Both the position numbers and the translations under genes were made by a program. Positions 14,139-60,240 of a DNA stretch of 64,000 nucleotides are shown here, piece by piece. Source of the DNA: Acholeplasmataceae bacterium (GTDB lineage Bacteria > Bacillota_I > Bacilli_A > Acholeplasmatales > Acholeplasmataceae); NCBI GenBank assembly GCA_007692425.1, contig RECG01000019.1:1-64000 (forward strand), in the 5' to 3' direction. A model generated the notes under the pieces. The model was not told where the DNA came from, ran no database searches, and worked only from the letters and a program-made list of their open reading frames with translations. Within the stretch, counting starts at the first letter, position 1; every line of letters starts with the position of its first letter.

Positions 14139-14173
14139 GAAAAAGCCGTTCGTTTTTCACGAACGGCTTTTTC
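14139..14173. terminator. Strong bidirectional terminator
   Basis: A 14-bp perfect stem (GAAAAAGCCGTTCG / CGAACGGCTTTTTC) with a 7-nt loop lies between convergent genes. The A-run and T-run allow termination of both the YwaF-like gene and the micropeptide/lipoprotein operon. Confidence 0.92.
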
Positions 14174-14200: not shown

Positions 14201-14620
14201 TCAGGAATGTTGGATGTTGATGGAGACGGTGCCGCTGGCACCTTCACCGACGATCTTGATACGATAAACACCTTGGGAAAGTTGGATGTCAGTGGTTTCG
14301 CGAAGCAAGGTGACGACATCATAAGGGTCGATGAGGACCACCATGAAGCGACCTTCGGTCACGTGTTGGGAAACGGTGATGGACCGTGTGTCATGACCGG
14401 TGAATTGAAGCAATGTCTGGCTGCCTTCAAATCCTTTGAATTGGATGAAAGCGGATTGGTCATCAATGCTACCGGCACGTTCCACAAAAGTGTGGGAATC
14501 CTCAGGCGCGATGATGGCTTGATTGTCGTCGATGACGGGAATCGGATCGTGTGTCATGTCACATGCCTGAAGCATGAAAATGACGGCGAAGAGGGCGAGG
14601 ATCTTGATCAGGTTAGCCAT
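14201..14620 (-). CDS. Small lipoprotein, last gene of the micropeptide operon
   Basis: 139-aa exported lipoprotein: MANLIK, a hydrophobic stretch, lipobox LQAC (Cys20), then a mature beta-rich domain of about 110 residues (FIQFKGFEGSQTLLQF, a D/E-rich middle, VYRIKIVGEGASGTVSINI at the end) that could be one immunoglobulin- or PPC-like sandwich; this is inference. Its start sits 13 nt inside the end of the preceding 35-aa frame, so it is translationally coupled to it. AAAGGA lies 9 nt upstream and is part of that frame's coding sequence. The first six residues (MANLIK) match the starts of the preceding micro-ORFs. Confidence 0.82.
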   Translation of the reverse strand: MANLIKILALFAVIFMLQACDMTHDPIPVIDDNQAIIAPEDSHTFVERAGSIDDQSAFIQFKGFEGSQTLLQFTGHDTRSITVSQHVTEGRFMVVLIDPYDVVTLLRETTDIQLSQGVYRIKIVGEGASGTVSINIQHS

Positions 14621-14715
14621 AGGAGGTAGTCCTTTCTGTCTGTGGTGTGGTCGAGCTTGTGGTTGTATTTGATCGGTTCAATGTTTTTTTGGTTGTTTTT
14701 AATTAGTCTAGCCAT
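14608..14715 (-). CDS. Micro-ORF 3 of ladder, 35 aa
   Basis: Short frame beginning MARLIKNN and ending RKDYLLWLT. ATG follows AAAGGAG with good spacing. It overlaps the lipoprotein start by 13 nt at its end and micro-ORF 2 by 13 nt at its beginning. AGAAAGGA near its 3' end encodes Arg-Lys-Asp and is also the ribosome-binding site of the lipoprotein gene; TATGGCTAA encodes Leu-Trp-Leu and contains the next start. The peptide is basic and Asn/Lys-rich. Function unknown. Confidence 0.65.
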   Translation of the reverse strand: MARLIKNNQKNIEPIKYNHKLDHTTDRKDYLLWLT

Positions 14716-14807
14716 GAGAGAATCTCCTTTCTTTCAATGGTTTCGAGTGTGTGGATGTGTTTGTAGATTTTGGTTCTGACTGGATCGCTTCTTAATAGTT
14801 TAGCCAT
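14703..14807 (-). CDS. Micro-ORF 2 of ladder, 34 aa
   Basis: Short frame beginning MAKLLRSD and ending RKEILSWLD. AAAGGA lies 9 nt before ATG. It aligns without gaps to micro-ORF 1, sharing M1, R6, RTK at 11-13, H19, E22, RKE at 26-28 and WL at 32-33. It starts 16 nt before the end of micro-ORF 1. Its RKE codons contain the Shine-Dalgarno of micro-ORF 3. Function unknown. Confidence 0.65.
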   Translation of the reverse strand: MAKLLRSDPVRTKIYKHIHTLETIERKEILSWLD

Positions 14808-14899
14808 AGTTCGAATTCCTTTCTTCCGTGTGATTCAATCATGTGCATCATGTTGATGACCTTGGTTCTCATTTCATTTTTTCTAATTCTTGTCTTCAT
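14792..14899 (-). CDS. Micro-ORF 1 of ladder, 35 aa
   Basis: First frame of the operon, beginning MKTRIRKN and ending RKEFELWLNY. ATG is 8 nt after AAGGAG and about 45 nt downstream of the predicted transcription start, so it should be well translated. The peptide is strongly basic (8 Lys/Arg, 4 Glu) with a Met-rich middle (VINMMHMIE). Similar in length and C-terminal pattern to micro-ORFs 2 and 3. It could be a functional peptide or a translated leader. Confidence 0.65.
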   Translation of the reverse strand: MKTRIRKNEMRTKVINMMHMIESHGRKEFELWLNY

Positions 14900-14949
14900 T
14901 TTGTTTCTCCTTTTCCGTTTTTCAGTTGATTTTTTTAACTTACACCTTA

Positions 14950-14978
14950 ATTATATTCAATTCGATATCATTTGTCAA
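14950..14978 (-). promoter_or_regulatory. Perfect consensus sigma-A promoter of the micropeptide operon
   Basis: On the minus strand TTGACA (14973-14978), a 17-bp spacer and TATAAT (14950-14955). Both hexamers match the consensus exactly, the strongest promoter seen in the window. Confidence 0.85.
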
Positions 14979-15093
14979 CCCTTTTTTTGAAAAAAAGTTA
15001 ATTTTTTTAATTTTTATATTGATATTATTAATTGATGGCTTAATAGAAGCGTTATTTTTTAATATAAAAATCGTTTTTTTTCTATAATATGCT
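14979..15093. other. Very AT-rich spacer, no gene seen
   Basis: Runs of A and T upstream of the micropeptide promoter may serve as an UP element. An open plus-strand frame here (14890-15087) has no ribosome-binding site and an all-Phe/Ile/Leu composition expected from T-rich DNA. Confidence 0.5.
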
Positions 15094-60035: not shown

Positions 60036-60067
60036 AAAACAAAACGCCCTCAGAATATCTAAGGACG
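60036..60067 (-). terminator. T-box terminator hairpin (alaS leader)
   Basis: Minus-strand CGTCCTTAGA and TCTGAGGGCG (with G-U pairs) around a 3-nt loop, then TTTTGTTTT. The upstream strand competes with the antiterminator at 60077-60090. Confidence 0.88.
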
Positions 60068-60240
60068 TATGATCTACGCGGTACCACCTTAGTTCTAGCA
60101 ATGCTAGCCCTCTTATGTCGTTAAGGCCGACTGACCGGTTGCTCCCAAACAGCGTTCACAGGGGCCATGCTTCGTTTCCACCAACCACGAAGTCTCTGGT
60201 TCAAGACACACCTGTTACTCCTTTTGTTCATCGCAATCAT
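60036..60240 (-). ncRNA. T-box riboswitch of alaS
   Basis: Leader RNA of about 205 nt that senses uncharged tRNA-Ala. The conserved T-box AAGGTGGTACCGCG lies at 60077-60090 on the minus strand; its UGGA-like bulge reads the tRNA acceptor end. Stem I lies upstream with an AGTA-type and GAA S-turn; GAAC followed by GCT at 60151-60153 gives a candidate alanine specifier codon. A terminator follows. The specifier position is my inference from placement. Confidence 0.93.

Follow-up and report, generated by a model that had tools for sequence, protein, structure and literature searches.

Three short reading frames lie between a promoter and a lipoprotein gene in the 64,000-nucleotide stretch of Acholeplasmataceae DNA analyzed here (the window; the genome that holds it is called G000 and its relatives are named by G-number), and each of them ends inside the beginning of the next. 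The locus raises the question of whether these frames are genes in their own right and, if so, how they arose and what controls them. The original prediction was that they may be tandem copies of a translation-start unit that act as coupled peptide genes or as a regulatory leader.

Geometry of the interlocked frames

The minus-strand starts at 14899, 14807, 14715 and 14620 and the stops at 14792, 14703 and 14608 proved exact, and the start-to-start spacings were 92, 92 and 95 nt as predicted. In order, the overlaps are 16 nt (ORF1/ORF2), 13 nt (ORF2/ORF3) and 13 nt (ORF3/lipoprotein gene). The features of the transcribed region are as follows.

14907..14913, minus strand: Shine-Dalgarno (SD) site of ORF1, AAAGGAG, 7 nt before the ATG
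14792..14899, minus strand: micro-ORF1, 35 aa, MKTRIRKNEMRTKVINMMHMIESHGRKEFELWLNY; conserved in frame, with a G001 counterpart of equal length and promoter distance
14801..14824, minus strand: junction 1, AGAAAGGA-N9-ATGGCTA; SD site and start of ORF2 within the end of ORF1
14703..14807, minus strand: micro-ORF2, 34 aa, MAKLLRSDPVRTKIYKHIHTLETIERKEILSWLD; frame read, periodicity
14709..14732, minus strand: junction 2, AGAAAGGAG-N8-ATGGCTA; SD site and start of ORF3 within the end of ORF2
14608..14715, minus strand: micro-ORF3, 35 aa, MARLIKNNQKNIEPIKYNHKLDHTTDRKDYLLWLT; frame read, periodicity
14614..14637, minus strand: junction 3, AGAAAGGA-N9-ATGGCTA; SD site and start of the lipoprotein gene within the end of ORF3
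14201..14620, minus strand: lipoprotein gene, 139 aa, with LQAC at the end of the signal peptide; genera g1 and g3 have orthologues
14139..14172, minus strand: hairpin resembling an intrinsic terminator, downstream of the lipoprotein gene, AAAAAGCCGTTCGT-loop-ACGAACGGCTTTTT, read from the sequence and absent from the consensus-scan list

Each start of the ladder is preceded by an exact SD match of 7-9 nt at a spacing of 7-9 nt; a search for the anti-SD sequence in the G000 assembly found no 16S rRNA end. The 64-kb window contains three copies of the pattern AGAAAGGA-N8/9-ATGGCTA, all of them at the ladder, with 0.00 expected. When frames of 20-60 aa with an SD site were collected from both strands, the ladder was the sole overlapping chain in the window, and the longest chain in 30 Markov-simulated 64-kb strands had one member (11 strands), two (18 strands) or three (one strand). 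The ladder is real and not a chance arrangement.

The gapless alignment of ORF1 with ORF2 that had been predicted was obtained, with 12/34 residues identical. The shared C-terminal RK(E/D) and WL residues are also present, but they do not serve as peptide evidence. AGAAAGGA is read as R-K-E/D, and ATGGCTA read one base later gives TGG CTA, or W-L, so that both motifs are the next SD site and start in another frame. They are forced by the interlock and are one DNA-level fact rather than two independent ones.

Arrays in sister species

A DNA search of 60 relatives with the ladder, the check suggested with the original prediction, returned no homologue, since the array diverges too fast at the DNA level. 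The lipoprotein sequence was used as the anchor for finding the array in relatives. Arrays occupy the same place, from an FTCD_C gene to the lipoprotein gene, in all three species of the genus, G000 included; the genus is known from these three species, all of them metagenome assemblies as far as named, and the FTCD_C-like neighbor was assigned in G001 (isolate M50B101) and G002 (isolate M55B151) by sequence likeness. The two other species have three and four micro-ORFs of 33-43 aa. The three of G002 (35, 43 and 33 aa) are interlocked and lead into the lipoprotein gene with overlaps of 16/16/16 nt and start-to-start distances of 92, 116 and 86 nt. The four micro-ORFs of G001 (35-37 aa) stand in tandem without overlap, and an SD site precedes every one of them; three of the four are 131-nt direct repeats. 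Interlocking is thus not essential to the array.

A micro-ORF1/2 profile searched against the whole family reached E < 1e-17 in two species, at this locus alone; all other matches had E values of at least 0.0045. Absence of the ladder from loci that keep the lipoprotein gene, put forward earlier as an observation that would count against the prediction, does occur outside the genus, but inside it 3/3 species have an array. The best reading of these comparisons is a genus-specific, ordered set of micro-protein genes that would have arisen by tandem duplication.

Coding character of the micro-ORFs

Codon periodicity was scored on interior codons only, with the start and junction parts excluded. 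GC contents at codon positions 1/2/3 were.34/.23/.61,.56/.24/.56 and.57/.32/.52 in the three species (P=0.001 each). All six interlocked spacings (92, 92, 95; 92, 116, 86) equal 2 mod 3 while departing from 92 by 3, 24 and 6 nt, indicating that the frame survived changes in length.

In G001 the first ORF is as long as ORF1 and lies equally far from TATAAT (56 to 164). The two peptides align without gaps with 12/35 residues identical at a DNA identity of 54%, and five of the 12 shared residues are encoded by different codons. The match is confined to frame 0 (frame scores 51/-1/13; P=1e-5). A profile made from the G001 peptides only put ORF1 at the top of all 2,222 window frames (E=2.2e-4; the next frame had E=0.34). 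The G002 profile placed ORF3 first and ORF2 second, weakly (E=0.28 and 0.5) and partly via junction residues. Substitutions among the G001 copies are largely amino-acid changing, which suggests loose constraint on single copies.

It is highly improbable that these are chance frames or the outcome of neutral tandem duplication without translation. Tandem repeats expand easily, and the chance of an open interior is about 0.2-0.36 for each frame (the product over ten interiors, about 3e-6, is an overstatement because the copies are related), but codon periodicity in three species, the frame-keeping spacings and in-frame conservation against 54% DNA identity all argue against this. The frames have their own SD sites and starts and codon-type periodicity, together with in-frame conservation in the case of ORF1. 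Sequence comparison thus gives strong evidence that ORF1 encodes a conserved peptide and moderate evidence, from similarity and periodicity, that ORF2 and ORF3 are coding. The idea of peptide genes therefore holds for ORF1 through conservation and for the arrays as a whole through periodicity, with ORF2 and ORF3 individually less supported. Pfam and NCBIfam searches gave nothing for the micro-ORFs.

The lipoprotein gene and its leaders

Searches of Pfam and NCBIfam gave weak matches only for the lipoprotein. Its structure model is a beta-sandwich (pLDDT 82), with which a PDB fold search found weak beta-sandwich/cupin-like matches only (TM at most about 0.5). The immediate neighbors of the unit are the FTCD_C gene and a TMEM164-like gene, the latter encoding a TMEM164-family membrane protein (PF14808; 13371-14114, plus strand) and convergent with the lipoprotein gene. 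Within the genus, G001 and G002 have orthologues of the lipoprotein, and so does genus g3, including Peloplasma aerotolerans. In g3 the same promoter is followed by a leader of about 75-120 nt without a micro-ORF array, and the operators described below are kept. These g3 leaders (L037, L039, L041, L042, L038, L040 and L045) have two conserved hairpins, the second of which runs into the SD site, and four predicted pairs are changed on both sides. A lipoprotein relative from Clostridium tertium (L046) is distant (31% identity) and lacks the promoter element.

Could the micro-ORFs serve only to deliver ribosomes to the lipoprotein start, or to protect a long leader, the peptides themselves being inert? 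Such a role would fit the interlocked junction geometry, kept in 6/6 cases, and an SD/start unit that is the most conserved DNA of the array; the leader is no more structured than its shuffles, and short ORFs with ribosome delivery as their only role have been described (PMC12548453). However, the peptide sequence of ORF1 has been kept across species with differing junctions, the lipoprotein start has a strong SD site of its own, coupling is reduced by overlaps beyond -4 nt (PMC12548453) and the sister-genus lipoprotein genes manage without an array. We regard this explanation as unlikely.

A leader in which translation of the micro-ORFs senses an amino acid, an antibiotic or translation stress and thereby switches the lipoprotein gene is more doubtful still. 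Short frames do lie directly upstream of a putatively regulated gene, and Trp and Leu codons stand near the interlocked stops, but that W-L pair follows of necessity from ATGGCTA read in the other frame, and G001 does not have it. A scan of the G000 leader detected no terminator-like site or hairpin, and the leader has no excess structure (z +1.2 to +2.6); this structural check concerns G000, the G001 and G002 leaders having been scored for overall folding energy only. The peptides contain no single-amino-acid run, and no Rfam family was found at the ladder locus. The proposal of a regulatory leader, insofar as it means attenuation through an alternative RNA structure, a terminator or a sequestered SD site, is thus not borne out in G000.

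Promoter, putative operators and a probable link to DUF2089 proteins

The TTGACA-17-TATAAT promoter was confirmed with a 12/12 match. Four features mark this region.

14950..14978, minus strand: promoter TTGACA-17-TATAAT
14998..15010, minus strand: operator-like direct repeat TTAAAAAAATTAA (TYAANAAAATYAA) upstream of the -35 element, at -55 from TATAAT, a position common to other promoters of the set
14926..14938, minus strand: second operator-like repeat TTAAAAAAATCAA, just past the inferred transcription start, at the +17 position that is occupied in 23 promoters
14935..14955, minus strand: conserved -10/initially transcribed element TATAATTAAGGTGTAAGTTAA, found in 34/88 family genomes

With one mismatch allowed, TATAATNAANGTGTAARTTAA was present in those 34 of the 88 family genomes, usually once or twice in each, and the reversed-pattern control gave 0. 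TYAANWAAATYAA repeats stand at fixed positions from TATAAT (-76, -55, +17 and +47), and operator sites numbered 73 in 44 promoter regions versus four in the 257 kb around them. The window has two copies of TYAANAAAATYAA, both at this promoter (0.10 expected). Among the 12 copies in the whole G000 genome, paired same-strand sites are found only here and at the promoter of the DUF2089 operon; of the eight single sites, seven lie inside frames of 262-601 codons and the eighth inside a 128-codon frame.

Three kinds of genes follow the promoter element: (i) an operon that encodes a protein of 117 aa together with a Zn-ribbon/HTH protein of the DUF2089 type (PF09862, PF22747) and, where read, a SHOCT-like protein (PF22746); (ii) the lipoprotein gene; and (iii) genes for small proteins of 44-69 aa, alone or in pairs. 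A few matches are unrelated promoters. Across the family the flanking TYAANAAAATYAA repeats are shared mainly with the promoter of the DUF2089 operon, and an operator is common to that operon and the micro-ORF/lipoprotein promoter; the DUF2089 gene of G000 lies on another contig than the ladder. We infer that a DUF2089 protein binds the putative TYAANAAAATYAA operators, and the shared operators suggest that the ladder unit is probably controlled by a DUF2089-type regulator. The 117-aa/DUF2089 operon looks autoregulated, judging from its promoter sequences. DUF2089 proteins have been tied by gene neighborhood to envelope-stress systems (PMC11237479), and an envelope-stress signal may act on the unit.

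The operon of the 117-aa protein (without a Pfam match), the DUF2089 protein and the SHOCT-like protein nearly always stands behind the same operator/promoter. Its loci are G000:C29:16500-21500 (L104), L014-L016, L025, L034, L036, L073-L077, L080, L081, L083, L086-L088, L090, L096 and L101. The lone or paired small-protein genes (44-69 aa) with the same promoter element are found in other genera (L024, L026, L032, L082, L018 and L084), and an (E)LFMASNDY-like motif is common to the small proteins of G011, G024 and G027. A link between the micro-ORFs and these G011, G024 and G027 proteins was not significant.

The DUF2089 connection also brings leaderless bacteriocins to mind, with the lipoprotein as immunity factor. 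Such clusters can have tandem homologous small-peptide genes beside a DUF2089 gene, as in thucin A (PMC9484092), enterocin DD14 (PMC7332713) and bawcin (PMC10707071), and thucin A resembles the ladder in having three tandem homologous leaderless small-peptide genes and a DUF2089 protein in the system. However, the micro-proteins (about 35 aa) are soluble, polar and basic (net charge +1 to +5) with modest hydrophobic moments, and are strongly hydrophilic (GRAVY -0.46 to -1.45), whereas average hydrophobicities of +0.20 and -0.11 are given for enterocin DD14 (PMC7332713). No exporter was found among the immediate neighbors, which the exporter/immunity check covered, the DUF2089 gene is unlinked and a lipoprotein gene is downstream. 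Hydrophilic peptides and the lack of an adjoining exporter gene do not support membership in this class, and we consider a bacteriocin-like array very improbable.

Proposed origin and expression of the array

The reading that we favor, and think probable, is that of a DUF2089-type regulon unit in which a duplicated micro-protein array and a lipoprotein gene would be translated from their own SD sites with some re-initiation. A strong promoter flanked by TYAANAAAATYAA operators would yield an A-rich mRNA encoding first the micro-proteins, which may have a function as peptides, and then the envelope lipoprotein.

The array would have grown by tandem duplication of a unit made up of a short frame with its start codon and SD site, and in G000 and G002 duplication would have interlocked the units so that every frame runs 13-16 nt into the following one. 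The predicted duplication of a translation-start unit finds support in the SD/start segment, which is a direct repeat in G000 and in the interlocked G002 array, and in the likeness of the N-termini: MANLIK of the lipoprotein resembles MAKLLR of ORF2 and MARLIK of ORF3. The interlock is therefore best explained by duplication with breakpoints in the translation-start region.

The individual SD sites and a leader without unusual structure indicate that each frame can initiate alone, and each micro-ORF is probably translated from its own site. Ribosomes that terminate shortly beyond the following start may re-initiate there to some extent, so that peptides and lipoprotein would be produced jointly once the operon is turned on. 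Coupling weakens as the overlap grows, and one study found none at -25 nt, which places overlaps of 13-16 nt in the range of reportedly weak coupling (PMC12548453). For this reason we put independent translation first, together with weak translational coupling, which is plausible from the geometry.

A bolder version, which is possible but which we hold only tentatively, is an expandable interlocking cassette through which a stress regulon doses a micro-protein family and passes ribosomes to the lipoprotein gene. Here the start unit would double as the C-terminal code of the preceding micro-protein, so that copies could be gained or lost with all frames and starts kept.

Comparison with known systems

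The statement that no system of this form has been described is too strong, given the parallel with mycobacterial interspersed repetitive units (MIRUs; Supply et al. 1997). According to a review (PMC12548453), MIRUs carry a small ORF that ends across the next start codon, couple at -4 nt, appear mobile and occupy many loci. As there described, a small ORF within a repeat overlaps the start of the following frame, and this is also found in the ladder and in G002. The spacing differs from -4 nt, the overlap being 13-16 nt in the ladder and nil in G001; unlike the MIRUs of that account, the ladder is neither interspersed nor mobile, with strong profile matches at a single locus only, its starts each have a strong SD site and the array leads a transcript. 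By this analogy MIRUs are the nearest known parallel.

Upstream ORFs and leader peptides, such as the E. coli TopAI-YjhQ uORF (PMC12121999), likewise place short frames between a promoter and a regulated gene. The present arrays differ in consisting of three interlocked or four tandem frames, in lacking an attenuator structure and in the conservation of ORF1 across species. The DUF2089 ZnR-HTH-SHOCT-like systems linked to PSP/Lia envelope stress (PMC11237479) share a gene order in which a SHOCT-like gene comes after a DUF2089 ZnR+HTH gene. What that paper reports is gene neighborhoods, whereas in the present case the DUF2089 operon has its operator in common with a gene unlinked to it, be it of the micro-ORF/lipoprotein or of the small-protein kind. 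Judged by sequence features, the array resembles known kinds (uORFs or coupled small ORFs, and tandem small-protein genes), and its putative regulatory context is well supported.

Genes of fewer than 50 codons are usually omitted from annotation. Here a conserved micro-gene array and its apparent promoter logic could be read from the DNA alone, giving peptides that can be tested. One DNA word serving as start signal and C-terminal code would permit tandem growth without broken frames, and the uncharacterized DUF2089 regulators gain a predicted operator and target set in the Acholeplasmataceae. Elsewhere in the window, a T-box leader (RF00230, 107 bits) lies at 60058-60240 on the minus strand.
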